Shown: positions 47,917 through 58,688, numbered from the stretch's first letter. The stretch: 64,000 bases of DNA from Nitratiruptor tergarcus DSM 16512 (GCF_027946175.1 NZ_AP026671.1:1488001-1552000); one strand, 5' to 3'. Notes: generated from the letters alone by a model not told the origin. A program made the numbers and translations.

Positions 47917-49308
47917 ATGTTTCATAAAAAAGTAGTTTTGCTCCCTACCATTATAATCTTAATCCTTTTTACAGGATGTGCTCCTAGTGTAAAAAATCTT
48001 GGAAAATCATCTGCTCATATGCAGGAGACAAAGCACGTTGCAACTCAATTAGAATATAAAAAGCTTTTTGATAAATATCTCGATGAAAATAAAACAGATG
48101 ATCTTCTTTGGGATTATGAAGCTGGCACAGTAGGATATTATGTTAAAGAGTACAAAGATAGTGTCTTTTACTTCGATAAAGCAGAGGATTTAATAAAAAA
48201 ATATGATGAAGAGATCTTAGCTTCAAAAGTACTAAGTAATGTAGGAGCAGCTCTCACAAATGATACCTTTATGAACTATCGCCCAAAAATCTATGAAAAA
48301 ATCATGGTTAACACGTATAAAGCTATCAATTTTATTAATATGGGAGATTTTCAAAATGCCAGAATAGAATTTAATAGAGCTTTAGTAAGAGAAGATAGAG
48401 CAAAAGAGTTTTTTGCAAAAGAGATCGGAAAAGAGAAAGAAAAACTCCAGCAAGAACAAAAGAAAAAGCTTCAAAATGTTAAAATCAAAAAGGAAACGAC
48501 TAGTCCAATTGAAAAAAAATACTCCAATCTTTTTGCCTTTAAACCTTATAGAGATTTTACAAATCCATTCACCAGCTATCTTGCAGGTATATACTTCCTC
48601 AGTATTGGAGACTATGACAAAGCTACAGATCTTCTAAAAGAGTGCTACGGAATGATAAAAGGTCTGGACGCAGGTGCTGATTATGTCAAAGCAGATTTTG
48701 AATTAGCTGATAAAATGAAAGGTTCTTTGACACAAAGAGCTAAACATTATACATGGGTTATCTTTTCGAACGGACTTGCTCCAAAAAAAGAGGAGTGGAA
48801 AATCGATGTCCCTGTTTTTTTAGTATCAGATAAAGTACTGTATACAGGTATTGCTTTGCCAACATTAAAAATGAGACCGAAAGCATATAGGTATCTTGAA
48901 ATCACAACACCCTATGGGACAAAAAAGACAAAAGAGATAGCAACTATGGATAGAGTTATCAAACTAGAATTTAAAAAACGCTTTCCTGTTATTATGACAC
49001 GGGCACTGACTAGAACAATTGTTCAAACTGTCATTCAAAAACAGCTTCATGATAAGTATGGTTTCTTTGGCGGGCTAGTAGGTGCAGCTTATCAAGGCAT
49101 CATGAATAAAGCAGATACAAGAATGTGGGAACGACTACCAAAAGAGTTTCAAGTAGCAAGACTCCGCACTCCTGAAAAACTTGATATTTTTACTCCAGAT
49201 AAAAAACACATTGTTTCAATTCTTACAAATAGTGCAAAAAATTATATTGTATTTATCACAATTCCTTCTAAATCGAGTGAACCCATAGTATCGTATCAAG
49301 CTTTTTGA
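47917..49308 (+). CDS. COG3014-type lipoprotein with TPR-like helices
   Basis: 463 aa. Lipobox FTGCAPS (Cys21), then a helical region (DDLLWDYEAGTVGYY, VNTYKAINFINMGDFQNARI, YLAGIYFLSIGDYDKATDLL) with TPR-like repeats, a charged coiled-coil near residues 165-190, and a beta-rich C-terminus. This matches conserved envelope lipoproteins of the COG3014 group, which in gamma-proteobacteria often sit with YcfL and LpoB relatives, as they do here. Role unknown, probably envelope assembly or secretion. Confidence 0.8.
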   Translation: MFHKKVVLLPTIIILILFTGCAPSVKNLGKSSAHMQETKHVATQLEYKKLFDKYLDENKTDDLLWDYEAGTVGYYVKEYKDSVFYFDKAEDLIKKYDEEILASKVLSNVGAALTNDTFMNYRPKIYEKIMVNTYKAINFINMGDFQNARIEFNRALVREDRAKEFFAKEIGKEKEKLQQEQKKKLQNVKIKKETTSPIEKKYSNLFAFKPYRDFTNPFTSYLAGIYFLSIGDYDKATDLLKECYGMIKGLDAGADYVKADFELADKMKGSLTQRAKHYTWVIFSNGLAPKKEEWKIDVPVFLVSDKVLYTGIALPTLKMRPKAYRYLEITTPYGTKKTKEIATMDRVIKLEFKKRFPVIMTRALTRTIVQTVIQKQLHDKYGFFGGLVGAAYQGIMNKADTRMWERLPKEFQVARLRTPEKLDIFTPDKKHIVSILTNSAKNYIVFITIPSKSSEPIVSYQAF

Positions 49309-49314
49309 GAGAGA

Positions 49315-49989
49315 TTATTTTCTCTCTCCTAAATGAATATCAATATTTCCTGTATTTTTACTGCCCTTTATAATATGCGAACTCTCTATATGAGAATTAT
49401 GCTTTTTTTTGGTCTTCTCTCGAAGCTTTTCAAAAAATTTTTTATGTTTTTGCTTCTGTTTTTCAAAATCCTCATTAAAATTATCATAATCTATCCACTC
49501 TTGATTATTTTCTGTACCAAATGATCGTAAGAGATCCACAACATTTTTATCGTTCCTTTTCGCGGCAATTTCTAAGGGCGTGAGATTGTCTCCATTTTTT
49601 AATTTTAATGCTATCGCAAAAGATGGAGAAAGCATTAAAAGTTTTATCGCATAAGTATCTCTATTCATGACTGCTAAATGTAGAGGTGTATTGCCGGCAC
49701 CATCTTGTATTGCGATATTCTTTTTTTGATCGATTAAAAATCTCAATAATCTATATTTTTTATATAAAACTGCATAGTGCAAAAGATTTCTTCTATTGAT
49801 ATCATATTTATCTAAAACAAAAAGGTGACTTTTTACATACTGCAATATACTATTTTCATTGTCATATCTTACTCTATAAAAAATAGAGGTATTTTGATCA
49901 CTATTAATATTCACATCTATATTATCACTAAAAGCAAAGAGGTTTGCTGATAAGAATATCATTAAAAGCAAACAGCATTTATATTTCAT
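49315..49989 (-). CDS. Exported ankyrin-repeat protein with fibre-like C-terminal motif
   Basis: 224 aa. Signal peptide (LSANLFAFSD), then ankyrin repeats: NRRNLLHYAVLYKKYRLL, GNTPLHLAVMNRDTYAIKLL and NLTPLEIAAKRNDKNVVDLL. The Lys-rich C-terminus ends in IIKGSKNTGNIDIHLGERK, close to the GNAGI repeats of the adjacent plus-strand gene. It is the only gene here on the minus strand. It likely binds or anchors fibre components at the envelope. That role is an inference. Confidence 0.78.
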   Translation of the reverse strand: MKYKCCLLLMIFLSANLFAFSDNIDVNINSDQNTSIFYRVRYDNENSILQYVKSHLFVLDKYDINRRNLLHYAVLYKKYRLLRFLIDQKKNIAIQDGAGNTPLHLAVMNRDTYAIKLLMLSPSFAIALKLKNGDNLTPLEIAAKRNDKNVVDLLRSFGTENNQEWIDYDNFNEDFEKQKQKHKKFFEKLREKTKKKHNSHIESSHIIKGSKNTGNIDIHLGERK

Positions 49990-50126
49990 CTTAGAACTTT
50001 CTATAAAAAATAATATTTATTTCAGAAATATTGCATCCCTTATAAAATTTTATTCATTTAATCTTTAATTAACATAAAATGTTTTATAATATTTATGAAG
50101 AGCCAATAAAACAAAAGGAGAAAAAA

Positions 50127-50861
50127 ATGAAAAAGTTAGTTCTTGGAATAGTAAGTGTAAGTTTAATTACATCTTCGCTATTGGCTTTAAGCAATAAAGT
50201 TGAGGTGAAAAACTCTACAATTTTGAATAAAACAAAAATTCTTAATTCAACTAATCGTGGAAATGCAGGTATTGAAGTAAAAGGAAAAAATGTCAAGATA
50301 AAAGATTCCACAATTAAAAATGAAACAACAATAAGAGATAGATCAACAAACACTGGAAACGCAGGTATTTCGGTAAAAGGGAAAAATGTTAAGATAAAAA
50401 AATCCACAATTAAAAATGAAACAACAATGAGAAATAGATCAACAAATACAGGAAACGCTGGTATTGAAGTGAAAGGTAGAGGAAATGTAAAAATAACGAA
50501 TAAATCAAAACTTTTAAACAAAACAGAGATGATTCGTTCAACAAACACTGGAAATGCTGGTATTTCAGTAAAAGGGAAAAATATTAAGATAAAAAAATCC
50601 ACAATTAAAAATGATACAACAATGGTCAATTCTCAAAATTATGGTGGAAATGCAGGTATCTCAGCTAAGGGTGGAAATGTTGGAATAACAAAGTCAAAAC
50701 TTTTAAATAAAACAATGATGATTAACTCAGAAAATCGTGGGAATGCCGGCATCTCAGCAAAAGGGAGAAATGTAAATATAAAAAATTCCACAATAAAAAA
50801 TGATACAACATTAGTCAATTCAAAAAATCGTGGGAATGCAGGAGTCAAACTGGGAGACTAA
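50127..50861 (+). CDS. Exported Asn/Gly repeat protein, candidate fibre subunit
   Basis: About 244 aa. I start at the ATG at 50127 (AAAAGGAG before it, then a signal peptide ending SLLALS) rather than 50079. The mature protein is six tandem repeats of about 32 residues, each opening NAGI(E/S)(V/A)KG, running through NVKIKKSTIKN and ending in an STNTG-like turn. A final NAGVKLGD caps it. It is rich in Asn, Thr, Gly and Lys and has no Cys. The period suggests a beta-solenoid or functional amyloid, analogous to CsgA, though the repeat itself is unlike curlin. It lies at the head of the exported gene run and is likely abundant. Confidence 0.82.
   Translation: MKKLVLGIVSVSLITSSLLALSNKVEVKNSTILNKTKILNSTNRGNAGIEVKGKNVKIKDSTIKNETTIRDRSTNTGNAGISVKGKNVKIKKSTIKNETTMRNRSTNTGNAGIEVKGRGNVKITNKSKLLNKTEMIRSTNTGNAGISVKGKNIKIKKSTIKNDTTMVNSQNYGGNAGISAKGGNVGITKSKLLNKTMMINSENRGNAGISAKGRNVNIKNSTIKNDTTLVNSKNRGNAGVKLGD
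50262..50858 (+). repeat. In-frame ~96-bp tandem repeats encoding GNAGI units
   Basis: Six units of 93-99 bp and a short last one, starting at AATGCAGGTATT-like positions. Units share long identical stretches (for example AAAAAATCCACAATTAAAAA). Units 1, 2, 4 and 6 carry STIKN, units 3 and 5 KLLNK, a mixed pattern that suggests duplication of repeat blocks. Recombination could change copy number. Confidence 0.85.
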
Positions 50862-50865
50862 AATA

Positions 50866-50887
50866 GAAGGTGGATTCTTCCACCTTT
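50866..50887 (+). terminator. Stem-loop between the repeat protein and the next gene
   Basis: AAGGTGGA-TTCT-TCCACCTT, an 8-bp perfect stem with a tetraloop, 5 bp after the stop codon at 50861. There is no T-run. It could be a partial terminator or an RNA-stabilising hairpin that raises expression of the repeat protein over the downstream genes. Confidence 0.5.
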
Positions 50888-50903
50888 ATGGAGAAAGGAA
50901 AAG

Positions 50904-51503
50904 ATGAAAAAACTCAATCTTTTAATAGTATCAGGTTTTTCCTTTTTTTGTTTTGCTTTTAGTGAAGCAACAATTTCACAACAAAATCCTACATCTTATA
51001 ACACAAACAATAAACCTTCAGAAATTATAAAACAAATGGGGGCAGAAGCATCTTCGCATCCCCAAGTTCAATATGGCAAAAGCTTTAACGATGAATTTGA
51101 AAATTTTGGAAAAGATAAAAAAATCAATAAACTCTATTATAGAAATATGATAAAGCAAAGAGCAAAGAGGAATCCTAAAAAATATAAATTTAAAATTATT
51201 AGAAAAAGAAGTGATCTACAAAAAGTAGGAGTAGAAGTAAAAGATAAAAAAAGAGTGAGAGAAGTCTATAACTATACTGAAATCAAAAATATCACTTCTA
51301 CATCTTTACATGACAATAAGGAAAAAAATGTTGGTGTTGTTATTGATAAAAAAGCAAAATTGAGAAAAGTTGTTAATATTGTCGATATTAAAAATGTTCA
51401 TACAAATGAGAAATTAAATAGCGGTGTTGAAATTAAATCAAAAAAACTTCCATCAAAAATTATAAATAGTGTTCAAATAAAAAATAGCAAAATTGGAGAG
51501 TAA
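50904..51503 (+). CDS. Exported protein with related repeats, candidate minor fibre subunit
   Basis: 199 aa. Signal peptide (FFCFAFSEA), a low-complexity Asn/Gln/Ser-rich N-terminus, then three ~30-residue repeats: VGVEVKDKKRVREV...EIKN, VGVVIDKKAKLRKV...DIKN and SGVEIKSKKLPSKI...QIKN. The G(V/I)EVK opening and IKN ending match the GNAGI repeats of the upstream gene. By analogy with CsgA/CsgB this could be the minor or nucleating subunit. It has a GAGAAAGGAAA ribosome site and lies 3 bp before the CsgG-like gene. Confidence 0.75.
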   Translation: MKKLNLLIVSGFSFFCFAFSEATISQQNPTSYNTNNKPSEIIKQMGAEASSHPQVQYGKSFNDEFENFGKDKKINKLYYRNMIKQRAKRNPKKYKFKIIRKRSDLQKVGVEVKDKKRVREVYNYTEIKNITSTSLHDNKEKNVGVVIDKKAKLRKVVNIVDIKNVHTNEKLNSGVEIKSKKLPSKIINSVQIKNSKIGE

Positions 51504-51506
51504 ACA

Positions 51507-52550
51507 GTGAAAAAGCTAGCATGGTATCTCAGTCTGGGTTTAGCAATAATGTTACTAAGTGGCTGTGGAATTGCAGCTGCTAAAAAAAGAATTCCAAAAC
51601 TTGAAAAGCCGAAGCAAGAGGTAACAACTAATGAAACTAAATATAGTGTCTCCCTGCAGACAATAGGCGACATGCTCTATGAGATAGAAGATCCAGATAT
51701 CTACATCTATATTCAGCCTATAACGAATAAAACAACAGGAATAGGAAAAGTTCCAGAGGATATTGCCGGTATGCTCAAAAGTTCTTTTATGAATATGGGA
51801 TACAAAGTGCATGTTGTCTCCAATCCTGACTTTATCCCAAAAGGAGCAGAAGCTTTTGTTATTGAAGGTGAAATTAGTGAGTTTGATGCAATCAAAAGCG
51901 AAAATGCAAATTACAATCTTGGACTCTACTTTGGAAAAGGACAAGGGGAAACGGACATAAGCAAACAAGCTGATTATGGATACCAAGAAATTAAACTGGG
52001 AGTCGATTTACGAGCTATAAATTTAAATACACTAGAGTATGTACCTTTTGCTTTCGCAAAAAACAAAGTTATTATAAAACGACTTACCGACTCAAATGAA
52101 GTAGGCTTCAATATAGCCGGAAGTGGTTATGCTCTAACAGGAAGCGCAAGTGTACAAAATGGTGTGCATGAATCCCTCCGACTTTTAGCAGAAGCAAGCA
52201 GCGTAGAGTTATTAGGAAAACTGCGACTCCTTCCATATTGGTTAGCAATTCCAGGAGCAATGCCAGAATATCAGGTAATCAACAATTATAAAAGAAAATT
52301 TCGTTCACTTCCACCGGAAAAAAAGGCTATATATGTCTACTATTTACTAGGAAAATTTTATCCAGATATGAATGAAAACAATTTTTACAACTACATAATT
52401 AGATTTAAAAAAGAGTATGGCATATACCCACCAGATGATACAATCACACCGGAGCTTTTTGTAAAACTCTTGATCAATTTACCAAATACACAGGTAAAAA
52501 GAAAAATAGAGTATAAACGAAAAAAACTTTTAAAATCAATTTTGGAGTAA
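51507..52550 (+). CDS. CsgG-like outer-membrane secretion lipoprotein
   Basis: 347 aa, GTG start with GGAGAG before it. Lipobox LLSGC (Cys20). The body follows CsgG: IYIYIQPITNKTTGIGKVPE, a regulatory-looking MLKSSFMNMGYKVHVV, AFVIEGEISEFDAIKSENAN, then a hydrophobic amphipathic stretch, EIKLGVDLRAINLNTLEYVP, and ASVQNGVHESLRLLAEASSV near the C-terminal part. CsgG forms a nine-fold channel that exports curlin. The extra ~90-residue C-terminal tail (LPPEKKAIYVYYLLGKFYPD onward) is not part of curli CsgG. It lies 3 bp after the minor repeat gene and 3 bp before the next. Confidence 0.78.
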   Translation: MKKLAWYLSLGLAIMLLSGCGIAAAKKRIPKLEKPKQEVTTNETKYSVSLQTIGDMLYEIEDPDIYIYIQPITNKTTGIGKVPEDIAGMLKSSFMNMGYKVHVVSNPDFIPKGAEAFVIEGEISEFDAIKSENANYNLGLYFGKGQGETDISKQADYGYQEIKLGVDLRAINLNTLEYVPFAFAKNKVIIKRLTDSNEVGFNIAGSGYALTGSASVQNGVHESLRLLAEASSVELLGKLRLLPYWLAIPGAMPEYQVINNYKRKFRSLPPEKKAIYVYYLLGKFYPDMNENNFYNYIIRFKKEYGIYPPDDTITPELFVKLLINLPNTQVKRKIEYKRKKLLKSILE

Positions 52551-52553
52551 AGC

Positions 52554-53747
52554 ATGAGAATACTCCTTTATATATTGCTATTATCAGCTGTTCTTTTTGC
52601 AGATAAAATCGCTACGAGTTACCAAGGTACATCTGATTATAATGTCATTAGCAACAGCATTCTCAATACATATTTCACTATCGAAGAGACAAAAGGCGAT
52701 ATTCAAAGCTTGCGCTCTCTTCTAAAAAATCCCGCTACTTCATTAGCAGTTGTCCAAGAAGATATTATCAAAGATGTGATAAGAGAAGATTTTGCGCTCA
52801 AAGAAAGATTAAAAATTGTCTCTCCTCTTTATAGAGCAGCTATACTCATAATTACTCCTAAAAATAGTGAAATAAAAAATCTCAAAGACCTCTCCAATAG
52901 AAGAGTGATAGTTGATAGTGAAGGGAGTGGAGATTTTTATACCTTCCTCAATCTCCAAGAAAAATATACCATAACGCCAGAAATTTTTAATATCAAGAAG
53001 AATGAAGCTATAAAATATTTAAAACGAAGCAAAGCTGATGCCTTTTTCTATATAGGCAACATCAAAGATATTGCTTATCTCTACCCTTCTTACAATTTTA
53101 TTCCTGTAGTAGACAGCAATTATAAGCTGGGCTTTTTCGATATTGATAATAACAATAGCATAAGAACTGCATATCTAGATAAATTTTTACTCTCAACTAC
53201 ACAGAAAGAAAAGAGACTTCCAAAAACGGATCTCCACAAGCTCCTTGCAACACTTTTAGTAAAAGGAGAGAGAGAATATCTTTGTGGGTTTACAAGAAAT
53301 ACTCCAGTGCAGCTTGAAGATTATATCTATTTTGTCTGTGCTGAACATATTACACCACAACAAAAATCTCCTAGTATCACTCATGCTAAACATAAAAAGA
53401 AAATAGCAAAAAAACTTTATTACGATGATATAGAAGATATTACAATTTATCCTATAGCATTAAAAAACAAAAATTTTGACAATTATGGTACAAGTTATAT
53501 TGTCGAAAAAACTAAATTGGACAATGCTATAAAACTCATAAAAAAAGAGATTAAAGAGGATCCATCTTGCAAAATCGTCATTATTAGCAAAGGCAATGAA
53601 GCTGAAGCTATTGAGCATGCAAAACTTATTAACAGATATTTCAAAAAAGCCCACATTAAAAGAAAATATATTATTAATAAGGTTTTACCTATTCCATGTA
53701 ATGACAACTGTTTTTACAGCACAACCATAACATTTAAACAGTTATAA
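52554..53747 (+). CDS. Exported TAXI/NMT1-like binding protein
   Basis: 397 aa. Signal peptide, then a periplasmic-binding domain of TAXI type: SLAVVQEDIIKDVI, IVSPLYRAAILIITPKNSEI, LKDLSNRRVIVDSEGSGDF. No membrane transporter partner is in the operon. Residues about 270-397 are a second domain ending in a helix-sheet unit (EAEAIEHAKLINRYFKKAHI) that recalls OmpA-like peptidoglycan-binding ends, weakly. Its ligand is unknown, perhaps a fibre or peptidoglycan component. Encoded 3 bp after the CsgG-like gene. Confidence 0.68.
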   Translation: MRILLYILLLSAVLFADKIATSYQGTSDYNVISNSILNTYFTIEETKGDIQSLRSLLKNPATSLAVVQEDIIKDVIREDFALKERLKIVSPLYRAAILIITPKNSEIKNLKDLSNRRVIVDSEGSGDFYTFLNLQEKYTITPEIFNIKKNEAIKYLKRSKADAFFYIGNIKDIAYLYPSYNFIPVVDSNYKLGFFDIDNNNSIRTAYLDKFLLSTTQKEKRLPKTDLHKLLATLLVKGEREYLCGFTRNTPVQLEDYIYFVCAEHITPQQKSPSITHAKHKKKIAKKLYYDDIEDITIYPIALKNKNFDNYGTSYIVEKTKLDNAIKLIKKEIKEDPSCKIVIISKGNEAEAIEHAKLINRYFKKAHIKRKYIINKVLPIPCNDNCFYSTTITFKQL

Positions 53748-53749
53748 CG

Positions 53750-54286
53750 ATGTTTACAAATACTTTTATACTCTTTTTTCTCATATCGTCGTCTCTCTTT
53801 GGGTATGTTTTTGAAACGAATCCTATTAATAATAAAATAGATCAATTCAAAAAACAGCTTTTAGATACAAGAACTATCTCTAACAAAATATTCCGTGATC
53901 AGGTATTTAATAAAAAGGATTTTAAAAATTACAAATTTGAAAAAGTAGAGTTTATTCATTGTAATTTTAATGCAACCAATTTTCGCAATAGTAAATTTAA
54001 CAAAGTAGTTTTTAAAAACTGCACCATTTACAATAGTGACTTTAGATTGACTCTCATAAAATTTAGCAAATTTATAAAAAGTGAAATAAAGGTTTCCTAT
54101 TTCAATAATGCAAAATTACATTTTATAGACTTTATCTATTCAAAGTTACCAGGAACCAGTTTTGTACAAGCAACATTACATAATTGCAGATTTATAAAAA
54201 GCGATTTATCTTCAGCTATTTGGCCCAATGGGGAAAAATGTATGAAAGGAAGTTTTGAAAAATGTATCTATTTACAAAAAAGATAA
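53750..54286 (+). CDS. Exported pentapeptide-repeat protein
   Basis: 178 aa. Signal peptide (LFGYVFETN), then pentapeptide-repeat units A(D/N)LXX-like: NFNATNFRNSKF, NSDFRLTLIKFSKF and HNCRFIKSDLSSA. These form a right-handed quadrilateral beta-helix. It starts 2 bp after the binding-protein gene and overlaps the next gene by 25 bp. Exported pentapeptide-repeat proteins are not common, and here it sits among other predicted repeat or beta-helix proteins. Confidence 0.78.
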   Translation: MFTNTFILFFLISSSLFGYVFETNPINNKIDQFKKQLLDTRTISNKIFRDQVFNKKDFKNYKFEKVEFIHCNFNATNFRNSKFNKVVFKNCTIYNSDFRLTLIKFSKFIKSEIKVSYFNNAKLHFIDFIYSKLPGTSFVQATLHNCRFIKSDLSSAIWPNGEKCMKGSFEKCIYLQKR

Positions 54287-55002
54287 ACTTACTTGCAATT
54301 TTTTTGTTATTCATCGGAAATACACTCCTCTTTGCTGATAGCAACATCATCTCAAACAAGACAATAATATCTCCTGGTAGCGTTGTACATGGCAATACAG
54401 GAATCATTATTAACGGGAAAAAAGTATCGGCTCCTCATAAACAAGACTTAGCAAAAAGGATCGCAAAAAATATTCAATGCAGTTTTGACAAAGTAGTATT
54501 CAAAATAGATGGAATGACTCTTCATATACAAAATGGAGACAAAGAGTGCAAAATCATATATCCGCAAATACTAAAAAACGGGCTCAAAATAGCAAAGAAA
54601 ACTTTGGAGTTGAAAGACTCAAAAGAGATTGCTTATGGTGCGCCAATAGATTTATATATTCACAGTATTCATACCATTTCTCTTATTGGTGATATTTTTT
54701 TAAAAGTTGATAAAAAAATCGATACACTCAATCTTACAGTTCAAGGTGATGCAGACATTGAATTTAAAAATGCAGTTAATACCATTTCTTTAGATATAAT
54801 TGGAGATGCTCAAATTAAATTGCAAGATGTTCAAAAAGCTACTATTAACTACAGTGGGGATCTGTTTTTGGAAATAGAAAAGATTAAAACCTTAATATTA
54901 AAAGGGACAGGGGATGTGATTATCAGACCAGGAGATGAACATTTTACATTGATAAAATCTATAAATGGTGATTTACACATCATAAAAAAGGAGAAAAAGT
55001 GA
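54262..55002 (+). CDS. Exported DUF2807-like putative adhesin with GNTGI motif
   Basis: 246 aa. Signal peptide (NTLLFADS), then GSVVHGNTGIIINGKKV, which matches the GNAGI repeats two to four genes away. The C-terminal ~100 residues (IDTLNLTVQGDADIEFKNAV, SLDIIGDAQIKLQDV, TLILKGTGDVII) show the repeated short beta-strands of the DUF2807/head-GIN fold, found in surface adhesins. It overlaps the pentapeptide gene by 25 bp and the next by 4 bp. Confidence 0.75.
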   Translation: MYLFTKKINLLAIFLLFIGNTLLFADSNIISNKTIISPGSVVHGNTGIIINGKKVSAPHKQDLAKRIAKNIQCSFDKVVFKIDGMTLHIQNGDKECKIIYPQILKNGLKIAKKTLELKDSKEIAYGAPIDLYIHSIHTISLIGDIFLKVDKKIDTLNLTVQGDADIEFKNAVNTISLDIIGDAQIKLQDVQKATINYSGDLFLEIEKIKTLILKGTGDVIIRPGDEHFTLIKSINGDLHIIKKEKK

Positions 55003-55409
55003 ACATAAAGACTTTGAAAATATGGAGTATTATTGCGGTGCTCATTCTTTCAACCGGATGTGCCCCCTCTACATACCCTGCACACAAAAGTGCAAGCAAC
55101 GTTTTAAAAAGTATAAGCAATGAGTATATTATCAACAATATTCCATTAGATTATAAAGTCTCTATTGTCAGCTATAACTCCAAGTATACTAATGACCTTT
55201 TACATGTCTCTGTTGACATCAAAAATCATAAACAGGAGCAATATGAGCTAGAGTATCGATTTAGATGGTTCGATGATACCGGATTTGAAGTTGATGCAAC
55301 ACCTTGGCTGCCTCTTACACTCAATGCTATGGAGTATAAAACAATTCAAGGAATTGCTCATAGCCCTCAAGTCGAGTCTTTCAAATTTTATATAAGAGTA
55401 AAACAGTAA
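54999..55409 (+). CDS. YcfL family lipoprotein (DUF1425-like)
   Basis: 136 aa, GTG start after AAAAAGGAG. Lipobox LSTGCAPS (Cys21). The conserved core VDIKNHKQEQYELEYRFRWFDDTGFEV is the YcfL signature. YcfL lies upstream of LpoB in E. coli, as this gene does here (7-bp gap). Its role is unknown. The 5' end overlaps the DUF2807-like gene by 4 bp. Confidence 0.83.
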   Translation: MNIKTLKIWSIIAVLILSTGCAPSTYPAHKSASNVLKSISNEYIINNIPLDYKVSIVSYNSKYTNDLLHVSVDIKNHKQEQYELEYRFRWFDDTGFEVDATPWLPLTLNAMEYKTIQGIAHSPQVESFKFYIRVKQ

Positions 55410-55416
55410 AGGAGCG

Positions 55417-56064
55417 ATGATGAAAAGAAAAACCATTTATATATCTCTTATAATAGCAAGCATATTTGTTTCTGGATGTGCAGTAAGTAGTCAACCCCAC
55501 TATATTGATAAAGAAAAATTAGGCACATCTACACCGACAACTCTTGGTCTTGATTATGAAGATATTGAAAGAGCTTCACTGAAACTTGTAGATTCTATGC
55601 TACGCTCTCCCTACCTCAACAGAATGTATGAGACAAAAATGAAAAAAGAGGGAAAACCTCTTATTATGATGATTAGTGATTTTACGAACGATACCACACA
55701 GCGCCTCGATATTGACCAGATAGTCAAAAAAATACGTATAGCTCTTCTTAATAGTGGTAAATTTATTGTAACAACTGCTCTTAGAGCTGGAGGCCCGGAA
55801 GATAGAGCGACATTAGAGCTGAGAAAGCTTAGAAAAAATAAAGAGTTTAATCAAAAAACAATTGCAAAAAAAGGAACAGTTGTTGCTCCAGATTTAAGTT
55901 TATCTGGCAAAATCATTCAACGAGTCTCAAAACTGCCAAATGGTGAGCAACGAGTTGATTACTATATCCAAATGAGTCTTACTGATGTAACAAGTGGTTT
56001 GGCTTTTTGGGAAGGTGAAGAGGTTATTAGTAAAGCTGGTAGCTCTAAATCTGCACCATGGTAA
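55417..56064 (+). CDS. LpoB-like outer-membrane lipoprotein
   Basis: 215 aa. Lipobox VSGCAVSS. The mature region contains PLIMMISDFTNDTTQRLDID, LRAGGPEDRATLELRKLRKN, VAPDLSLSGKIIQRV and VDYYIQMSLTDVTSGLAFWEGEE, the LpoB/CsgG-like core. E. coli LpoB activates the peptidoglycan synthase PBP1B from the outer membrane. Without a PBP in view, a direct role in the secretion machine is equally possible. Confidence 0.83.
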   Translation: MMKRKTIYISLIIASIFVSGCAVSSQPHYIDKEKLGTSTPTTLGLDYEDIERASLKLVDSMLRSPYLNRMYETKMKKEGKPLIMMISDFTNDTTQRLDIDQIVKKIRIALLNSGKFIVTTALRAGGPEDRATLELRKLRKNKEFNQKTIAKKGTVVAPDLSLSGKIIQRVSKLPNGEQRVDYYIQMSLTDVTSGLAFWEGEEVISKAGSSKSAPW

Positions 56065-56078
56065 GAAAGGAGAATACC

Positions 56079-57443
56079 TTGAAAATATATAAAATTCTAT
56101 TACATTCTTTAATAACTAGTTCACTTCTTGTATCAATATCTTCAGCCAATGCATCACAAAATAGTATCAATCAGCAAGATATACAAGAGCAAAACAGCTT
56201 ATCTCAACCTATAGTTCCAACAGCCTCAGAGAAAATAGACGACTGGGCTGATGCATTTTTACAAAAAGTAGGAATTCCCTCTTTTGGGGAAGTAAATGGA
56301 AAATTTTTCTATTATGCACAAGAAGCAGTATCAATTCCTGCAACAGATCCCCAGTTTGGAAATGCTTTAGTCAATGCATATGATAAAGCTTTCTTTGCTA
56401 TTATGGAACAGTATGCAAAAGATATGTATGGTAGAGAAACAGTTAATGAAATAAGACATTTTTTTTCGGACTCTTCGACAAATGCAGCGAAAATTGAGTT
56501 ACCAAACAATTACACAAGAGGTTTTTGGGGAAAAATTCTAACAATTTTGGATAAAAATCTAGATGTAATTGATAAAACTCTCGATAAAAAGCTCATTGAA
56601 CTTGGAGTAGATCCTAAAGAATTGCAACACATGTCTCCAAAACAGAAAAAAGATCTCTTCAAAGATAAATTTATAAAAAATGTAATTACCAAAGCAAGCG
56701 GCGATGTTTCTGGTATTTTTACAATTCAATCAGCGTGGGCATCAGATAAAAATGGTAATTATGTAGTAGGTGTTATCGCTGTCGTCAGCCCTAAAACTAA
56801 ACAGATTGCAAAAGATATTAAATACCATAGAAAATCTCTCATTAAGGGCAAAGGAAGAGATATACAATCTTTAATTCCACACTCTCCACAAGAACTATCA
56901 AAAACACTAGGTACACGTCTTGTATATGATATCGATGGAACTCCAGCAATAATTTCTTATGGAATACAAAGCTATATTCCAAATAAAGATCACTATATCA
57001 ATGTGAGACTCAAACAAAATGCAAGAGAGGGTGCAATATCAAATGCTGATGCACAAATTGCAATGCTAGTAAATGGTTATCTAAGTACAAAAACATCAAG
57101 ACAAACAGGTGAAGAGATTAGAAAATATGTAGAACGAGAACTTAAACCAGACAGCGATACGATTGAAAAAACAATTAAAAATATAATCGATATTACAAAT
57201 AAACAAGCTCAAGCTCATGCATCCATGAATTTACAAGGAGTCAGTACAGTAAAAACATGGAGATATACTCTTCCAACAGGACAAAAATTGGTAGGTGCTG
57301 TGAGAGTCTGGAGATACGCGACACTGCAAAAAATTAATCAATTTAAAAAAGGGTACAAACAAACAAGTAAACATACAACAAACAAAAGTGGTAAAAGTGG
57401 ATTTGGAGAAAGCCAAATTGTAAATGATATCAATGATTTTTAA
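56079..57443 (+). CDS. Exported protein of unknown function
   Basis: About 454 aa. An ATG at 56058 opens the frame inside the LpoB-like gene, but a TTG at 56079 has GGAGAATACC at good spacing and gives a compact signal peptide (SLLVSISSANAS), so I prefer it. The body is mixed alpha/beta (FALVNAYDKAFF-like helices, NGNYVVGVIAVVSPKTKQIA, LGTRLVYDIDGTPAIISYG) with Lys/Ser-rich ends and a C-terminal VRVWRYATLQKINQF. I recognise no family. Tight spacing ties it to the operon. Confidence 0.7.
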   Translation: MKIYKILLHSLITSSLLVSISSANASQNSINQQDIQEQNSLSQPIVPTASEKIDDWADAFLQKVGIPSFGEVNGKFFYYAQEAVSIPATDPQFGNALVNAYDKAFFAIMEQYAKDMYGRETVNEIRHFFSDSSTNAAKIELPNNYTRGFWGKILTILDKNLDVIDKTLDKKLIELGVDPKELQHMSPKQKKDLFKDKFIKNVITKASGDVSGIFTIQSAWASDKNGNYVVGVIAVVSPKTKQIAKDIKYHRKSLIKGKGRDIQSLIPHSPQELSKTLGTRLVYDIDGTPAIISYGIQSYIPNKDHYINVRLKQNAREGAISNADAQIAMLVNGYLSTKTSRQTGEEIRKYVERELKPDSDTIEKTIKNIIDITNKQAQAHASMNLQGVSTVKTWRYTLPTGQKLVGAVRVWRYATLQKINQFKKGYKQTSKHTTNKSGKSGFGESQIVNDINDF

Positions 57444-57452
57444 AGGCTAACA

Positions 57453-58688
57453 ATGAAAAAATTCATAGTGCTTATTCTATTTTCTCTTTCCCTATTTGCA
57501 GGAATCAAAACAATTAGTGTCATAGCCCAAGGCTATGGTACTACTTATGATGAAGCTGTCAAAAATGCTTTGATTAATGCAGTTGGGCAAGTCAAAGGAA
57601 TAGCAATTTCAGCACGAAAAAGATTGCAGCGAAAAATTCACGAAGCTCATATATCTGTCAATGATTCGTATAAGGCATCAATTAAAGTTGCTGATAGGAC
57701 ATCCAATAGCATTTATAGTTCAACTGGGGGATTTATCAATAGCTATAAAATCATTTACGTTAAAAAAATCTCTCCTAAAGAGTATAAAGCAAAAGTCAAA
57801 GCCTACTTTGCAAAATATAGATCCCCCGGGCTCAATCCTCGCAATCGCCGCTCCTTAGCAGTGCTTCCTTTTGAATACAAAAAAAATTACACCCTCTATG
57901 GTATTTCAATCAATGGTAAAGCATTGTCTGATCGCATAACACAATCTATTGTCAATAAGATCACACAAACAAGAAAATTTACAGTGCTTGATAGACAAAA
58001 TAGCAAATATTACCAAGTGGAAAAAGATTTACTTACAAGTGGGGATAGCGATCCGGTTGAGCTTGCAAGACTTGGTAAAAGACTTGGAGCTGACTATTTT
58101 GTCATTGGCCAGATATTGGATTTTGGGGTAAATAAAAATATAGAAAGCAACTACTACACAGGAGAAAGTAGTTCAAAAAATGAAGCCTACGCTACCATAG
58201 CTTATAGGATATTAAATATACCAACCCAACAGATTAAATGGTCTGATACTATTGACATTGAGTTTGAACTTCCTCCTGCAAGAAGAGCGGAAAGTATCGT
58301 AGTAAAAGCAGGAGATAAAATTGCCCAGGTTTTAGTCGAGCAGATCATTTTTAATATCTATCCCCCTAAAATAGTAAGTATTAGTAGAGATAGAGTAGTG
58401 GTCAACATGGGTGGAAATTTTATACATACGGGGGAAAAATATGAAGTATATAAACTTGGTAAAAGACTATACGATCCCTACACAAAAGAGTCACTTGGAA
58501 GAGAAGAGATAAAAATTGGAACAGTGAAAATCACAAAAGTGCTTCCAAAAATCTCCTATGCAAAAGTAGTTGAAGGAAAAGTAAGAAAAGGTGCAATACT
58601 TAAAAAAATATCTACCCCAAAAGAAGATGATTCCAACAGTCAAAATGTGGGCAAAGAATCTATGTTTGATGAGATGTTTCACAAATAA
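57453..58688 (+). CDS. FlgT/CsgG-like periplasmic protein
   Basis: 411 aa. Signal peptide (SLSLFAGI). Residues about 20-125 match FlgT N-terminal/LPP20-type domains (IAQGYGTTYDEAVKNALINA, VGQVKGIAISARK). A TolB/CsgG-like middle follows (RSLAVLPFEYKKNYTLYG, GADYFVIGQILDFGV). The C-terminal domain with LYDPYTKESLGREEIKIGTV is FlgT_C-like. FlgT stabilises the flagellar outer ring in vibrios, but no flagellar genes lie here. It ends the exported operon 9 bp after the previous gene. Confidence 0.8.
   Translation: MKKFIVLILFSLSLFAGIKTISVIAQGYGTTYDEAVKNALINAVGQVKGIAISARKRLQRKIHEAHISVNDSYKASIKVADRTSNSIYSSTGGFINSYKIIYVKKISPKEYKAKVKAYFAKYRSPGLNPRNRRSLAVLPFEYKKNYTLYGISINGKALSDRITQSIVNKITQTRKFTVLDRQNSKYYQVEKDLLTSGDSDPVELARLGKRLGADYFVIGQILDFGVNKNIESNYYTGESSSKNEAYATIAYRILNIPTQQIKWSDTIDIEFELPPARRAESIVVKAGDKIAQVLVEQIIFNIYPPKIVSISRDRVVVNMGGNFIHTGEKYEVYKLGKRLYDPYTKESLGREEIKIGTVKITKVLPKISYAKVVEGKVRKGAILKKISTPKEDDSNSQNVGKESMFDEMFHK

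Follow-up and report, generated by a model that had tools for sequence, protein, structure and literature searches.

The twelve adjacent genes at 47917-58688 of the window (the whole 64,000-nucleotide stretch of Nitratiruptor tergarcus DSM 16512 DNA that was analysed) comprise two modules, a five-gene host operon and a seven-gene cassette inside it. The cassette encodes an exported tandem-repeat protein (g3) and a lipoprotein whose profile places it with CsgG and HfaB (g5), and it probably represents an export system related to those of curli and the holdfast anchor but so far undescribed. No description of this gene combination was found in the literature searched, which consisted of open-access papers.

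Gene content and two-module structure of the locus

The initial annotation described twelve genes, eleven of them on one strand, tightly spaced from 50904 and all with signal peptides or lipoboxes. All twelve ORFs were confirmed, eleven on the plus strand and one, the ankyrin gene (49315-49989), on the minus strand; from 50904 onward they are separated by 2-9 bp or overlap. As read from the sequence, each protein has either a signal peptide or a lipobox at its N-terminus, the lipoboxes being those of the genes at 47917, 51507, 54999 and 55417. The features of the locus are listed below.

47917-49308, plus strand: g1, COG3014-like TPR lipoprotein at the head of the five-gene host module; same-genus orthologues match at 1e-246 and lie directly before YcfL.
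49309-54998, no strand: cassette of seven genes between g1 and g9, 5.7 kb, delimited by the g1-YcfL overlap in L031/L033 and by GC content.
49315-49989, minus strand: g2, exported ankyrin-repeat protein, cassette (Ank_2, 1.4e-15).
50127-50861, plus strand: g3, exported tandem-repeat protein, cassette; seven units of 31-33 aa, predicted beta-solenoid, proposed surface subunit.
50867-50886, no strand: 8-bp stem-loop between g3 and g4, found by pattern scan; perfect stem.
50904-51503, plus strand: g4, small exported protein with weak repeats, cassette; between the repeat-protein gene and the proposed pore gene.
51507-52550, plus strand: g5, CsgG/HfaB-type lipoprotein by profile, cassette; degenerate peptidoglycan-binding-like C-terminus, proposed outer-membrane export pore.
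52554-53747, plus strand: g6, exported TAXI-type binding domain with an extra C-terminal domain, cassette (TIGR02122, 1.1e-11, below its cut-off).
53750-54286, plus strand: g7, exported pentapeptide-repeat protein, cassette (PF13599, 8.4e-14).
54262-55002, plus strand: g8, exported DUF2807/GIN-domain protein, end of the cassette (PF10988, 4.4e-6; score 27, cut-off 24.2 bits).
54999-55409, plus strand: g9, YcfL/DUF1425 lipoprotein, host module (PF07233, 4.5e-22).
55417-56064, plus strand: g10, LpoB lipoprotein, host module (PF13036, 6e-41; TIGR02722, 143 bits against a cut-off of 110.55).
56058-57443, plus strand: g11, DUF6844 protein, host module (PF20891, 2.7e-28).
57453-58688, plus strand: g12, CsgG/FlgT-like protein without a lipobox, host module (PF03783, 1.1e-13; FlgT_M, 3.8e-5, below its cut-off).

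Domain matches agreed with the LpoB-like (55417), YcfL-like (54999) and CsgG/FlgT-like (57453) proteins of the initial annotation. The TAXI-type (52554), pentapeptide (53750), DUF2807/GIN (54262) and DUF6844 (56058) identities were absent from it. Comparison of the locus with PHROGs gave nothing informative.

The host module is a conserved envelope operon that is common in Campylobacterota, with DUF6844 present in 42 of 397 genomes and the order COG3014-YcfL-LpoB-DUF6844-CsgG/FlgT-like found in most of the DUF6844 neighbourhoods read (e.g. L031, L032, L033, L035, L036, L037, L039). Two genomes of the same genus (L031, L033) carry this operon without the cassette, and there the g1 stop codon overlaps the next ORF, YcfL. 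The g5 family profile matched 5 of the 397 Campylobacterota genomes; the six others of this genus gave no match. GC content is 28-33% in the cassette (mostly 28-31%), 33-35% in the host module and ~40% upstream. Because the cassette is rare and low in GC, we read it as having been inserted into the host operon rather than lost in other genomes. Direct repeats were not found at the cassette ends, whose longest common word is only 8 A-rich bases, and no tRNA adjoins the insertion, the nearest one ending at 21.8 kb in the window.

In three of the five genomes with the g5 family (G000, G248 and G330, which belong to different families), the modules are joined or adjacent, and the g5-type genes of G248 and G330 lie beside YcfL, LpoB, COG3014 or DUF6844 genes. 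Such meetings in different families would fit one ancestral twelve-gene system, with LpoB, YcfL and the CsgG/FlgT-like protein as dedicated exporter parts, but we consider this quite unlikely, since in many genomes, the two same-genus ones among them, the five-gene operon occurs alone, and Azospirillum, Arenicella, Rodentibacter, G302 and G392 have the g5 module but not the operon. The modules meet oftener than expected, yet each also stands alone, so that the link between them is real but looser than initially proposed. The twelve genes had initially been taken for one conserved system, a view that does not survive the independence of the five-gene operon in many Campylobacterota and the restriction of the 51507 family to 5 of 397 genomes. 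As for co-occurrence in other genomes, exported repeat proteins were indeed found beside 51507 relatives in other phyla, and the two modules are together in 3 of the 5 genomes. In G248, a gene among those for YcfL and other lipoproteins (L005:15978-17030) encodes a TIR-like protein whose C-terminus is possibly OmpA-like.

The cassette lipoprotein g5 and its relatives

The lipoprotein g5, which carries the lipobox LLSGC, had no Pfam match at E≤1, the CsgG family PF03783 included, and matched the HfaB equivalog NF037935 weakly (E=0.0013, 17.9 bits), without reaching its cut-off of 300 bits. Despite the missing Pfam match, profile and fold comparisons upheld the initial assignment of 51507 as a CsgG-like lipoprotein. 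The AF2 model built on 31 sequences (pLDDT 79, pTM 0.73) found its best Foldseek match in CsgG (1.6e-7), and in the VIA comparison it reached Z 13-15 to all eight CsgG entries among the matches listed, the next best being 10.6. The predicted fold of g5 is that of CsgG, and this check of the earlier claim did not refute it.

Results of the family-profile searches pointed the same way. Against the PDB, the g5 family profile matched CsgG (E=0.0016) and peptidoglycan-binding domains. In hhalign, HfaB ranked first (98.7%, E=2.4e-16) over 200 columns that take in both hairpin regions; CsgG came second (89%, E=2e-6), and neither LpoB (4%) nor the neighbouring g12 family (0.2%) was matched. Judged by profile, g5 is of the CsgG/HfaB type, closest to HfaB, then to CsgG, and not to LpoB. 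In 92% of bootstrap trees the g5 family came out as a single group, although its branch support was moderate (90/74); the CsgG clade was separate at 100/100. At the level of sequence, the family is a separate and very divergent branch of the CsgG/HfaB type.

Homology to HfaB and CsgG makes g5 most likely the outer-membrane pore by which g3 would exit. Strands 133-139, 151-154 and 199-215 of g5 lie in the regions of the CsgG membrane hairpins, and hydrophobic/small residues alternate along them across 31 homologues. The barrel is not confidently modelled, because the hairpin tip has a pLDDT of 41-52 in the AF2 model; both hairpin regions are aligned and amphipathic by sequence. The C-terminus of g5 is a degenerate peptidoglycan-binding-like domain, and in longer relatives PG_binding_1 and DUF4384 domains follow the core.

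That C-terminal domain (PG_binding_1 at 1e-11 in Azospirillum), the OmpA-family neighbours of many g5-type loci and the joining of g5 to the LpoB operon in this genome could also speak for periplasmic scaffold lipoproteins that, like LpoB, Lpp and Pal, tie the outer membrane to peptidoglycan and export nothing, the repeat proteins then being periplasmic or leaving by another route. We regard a scaffold as unlikely, since by profile g5 resembles HfaB/CsgG, both hairpin regions included, rather than LpoB, the strands of g5 homologues are amphipathic, and exported repeat proteins recur beside g5-type genes.

Relatives of g5 were gathered stepwise, beginning with G248 (27% identity) and proceeding through G330, G392, G302 and the Azospirillum plasmids to a collection scan, which gave at least 51 g5-type loci, a lower bound because one short peptide pattern was used. 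The loci belong to six Campylobacterota, about twenty Azospirillum, other Rhodospirillales and Acetobacteraceae, four Arenicella/Arenicellales, two Rodentibacter, one Methylococcaceae, one Rhodobacteraceae and others. Exported proteins that look caspase-like by sequence, and DUF4384-type proteins, recurrently adjoin g5-type genes in Campylobacterota, Acetobacteraceae and Methylococcaceae (L044:3824-5296, L047:2268-3602, L066:7437-9962, L092:3261-4964) and are absent from the window; they are possibly processing partners. One alphaproteobacterium (L120, G418:C1:456500-472500) has HfaB-like genes in a tandem series, each with small exported Asn/Ser/Thr-rich neighbours, and a possible HfaD was seen at L118.

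Repeat proteins and the other cassette genes

The tandem-repeat protein first seen at 50127 (g3) has a 96-bp repeat in 6.2 copies (score 399) and an internal-repeat z of 25.8 versus shuffles, and the smaller repeat protein at 50904 (g4) was likewise recovered, its repeats being weaker (z = 7.9). An AF2 model of g3 from sequence alone (pLDDT 95.2, pTM 0.90) predicted a regular beta-solenoid with three strands per ~32-aa coil. Foldseek against the PDB gave no match for g3 at E≤0.001, and its best VIA matches (Z 13.5) were beta-helix proteins, including the HxuA domain of two-partner secretion, a generic resemblance.

Across phyla, g5-type genes are recurrently paired with exported repeat proteins. 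With close relatives thinned, repeat proteins numbered 23 among the 106 genes lying no more than 2.5 kb from a g5-type gene and 3 among 100 more distant ones (p=2.9e-5), and 16 of 106 versus 0 of 100 when a signal peptide was required (p=1.3e-5), in a test that counted genes as units, used a simple in-house gene caller and signal-peptide rule, and was run after several loci had been seen. The exported repeat proteins mostly have a period of 32-42 residues and reach ~1,600 aa. Three Arenicella loci (L078, L082, L084) encode 468, 1578 and 1629 aa of ~33-aa repeats, and in each the repeat gene is immediately followed by genes for a small exported protein and the putative pore. Other examples occur in Rodentibacter (L090:4179 and 4674), Azospirillum lipoferum (L042:4909-5202), Rhodospirillales (L052, L073, L081) and Dankookia (L066); some g5-type loci, e.g. 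G392, L046 and L087, had no detectable repeat protein. A g3-only profile found nothing at E<0.05 besides g3. Because repeat proteins of different phyla have no significant sequence match to one another, the link among them is one of architecture and position. The giant Arenicella proteins are at L078:4038-5444, L082:234-4970 and L084:270-5159, the first with the motif NAAIGKxNxA..GSV..S.VGGDL.

Several of the remaining cassette genes also have counterparts near g5-type genes. Weak similarity connects g4 with proteins near such genes in L048 and L030. Homology of g4 to the small NVVNVC-type proteins beside the putative pore gene in other phyla was unsupported (0.2%), so its position has equivalents elsewhere by gene order only. 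Ankyrin proteins like g2 adjoin g5-type genes in G248 and G330, and in L048 they share a contig with such a gene. At its C-terminus, g6 has a domain similar to a 379-aa CsgG-like protein of G248 (2.8e-6); g5-type proteins of G248 and G330 carry this domain as a fusion, a hint that g6 and g5 work together. Identification of the domain as OmpA was rejected (hhalign 0.1%), and a repeat motif that by eye seemed common to the ankyrin tail of g2 and the N-terminus of g8 was unsupported (g3-only profile, E>1). The exported protein g6 (52554-53747) contains a TRAP-TAXI-type solute-binding domain, and no transporter genes adjoin it. Like g7 in the window, an exported pentapeptide-repeat protein of Rodentibacter (L090:8155-8694) is encoded beside a g5-type gene. 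Roles of g2, g4, g7 and g8 as partners or accessory proteins are guesses. Stem-loops are common 3' of highly expressed subunit genes, and the one at 50867-50886 might, speculatively, be an mRNA-stabilising or attenuating element; the number of stem-loop sites in the pattern scan was not above chance.

Proposed export mechanism and known systems

We think it fairly probable that a g5 pore exports unfolded g3, which then folds on the surface as a coat, fibre or adhesin. On this reading, a surface-protein cassette would have entered a conserved five-gene envelope operon. In the mechanism that we infer, g5, lipidated and peptidoglycan-linked, would oligomerise into an outer-membrane pore by means of its two membrane hairpins, and the pore would be held to the wall by the peptidoglycan-binding-like tail. 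The client g3 would cross the inner membrane by Sec, pass the g5 pore unfolded and fold outside into stacked beta-coils, which may polymerise on the surface to give a coat, a fibre or an adhesive layer. As for g4, it would act as a small accessory protein or as a second subunit, and g6-g8 and g2 would be periplasmic or surface partners.

Two CsgG-type export systems were found described, curli and the holdfast anchor. Chances are about even that g5-type loci represent a third, undescribed CsgG/HfaB-type secretion class, in which long repeat proteins of beta-solenoid type, reaching ~1,600 aa, leave through peptidoglycan-anchored pores in Alpha- and Gammaproteobacteria and Campylobacterota, beside true curli in Azospirillum and coupled in some Campylobacterota to the LpoB/YcfL envelope operon. 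If this is true, CsgG-type export would be a general route for beta-solenoid surface proteins, since the g5 family comes with clients, partners and a peptidoglycan-binding domain of its own. CsgG is in use as a sequencing nanopore, and a new pore branch would be of practical interest. A survey has placed part of the CsgG family outside curli, as likely paralogues (PMC3521004).

Among known systems, the beta-helix adhesins of two-partner secretion provide the best structural match of g3, through the HxuA domain, but no TpsB partner is present in the cassette and the Foldseek threshold was not reached. The envelope proteins LpoB, YcfL and FlgT have distantly related folds, and true LpoB and YcfL are encoded in the adjacent host operon, whereas the g5 family profile matches neither LpoB nor the FlgT-like g12. 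In Caulobacter, HfaB is needed for surface targeting of the curlin-like HfaA and the adhesin-like HfaD (PMC6707917). This HfaABD holdfast anchor contains the closest profile match of g5; however, g5 falls far below the HfaB equivalog cut-off, occupies its own branch and has a peptidoglycan-binding-like domain, and the locus showed no genes for holdfast polysaccharide.

With curli, the locus shares the predicted CsgG fold, the lipobox, the sequence regions aligned with the hairpins and an exported repeat protein in the same operon. The initial annotation had noted the absence of curlin repeats and CsgF, and profile searches of the window genome bore this out for both PF07012 and PF10614, each with a positive E. 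coli control; CsgE (PF10627) was absent from the locus by Pfam. Among 13 genomes or records searched, curlin repeats were confined to Azospirillum TSO35-2, where two canonical curli loci lie apart from the g5-type locus; CsgF exceeded its cut-off only there, with a sub-threshold match in G392. The locus is therefore not curli, curlin repeats and CsgF being absent. That the cassette is genuine curli, only strongly diverged, as the CsgG fold, the repeat subunits and the curlin-like NxxAxxxGxxNxAxQ repeats of some alphaproteobacterial clients might suggest, is very improbable, given the lack of curlin repeats and of above-threshold CsgF in the window genome and 11 of 12 other genomes or records. 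Also against it, CsgG forms its own clade and g3 is predicted to be a beta-solenoid with three strands per ~32-aa coil; unlike curli, the system described here would couple such a client to a pore bearing an extra peptidoglycan-binding-like domain.
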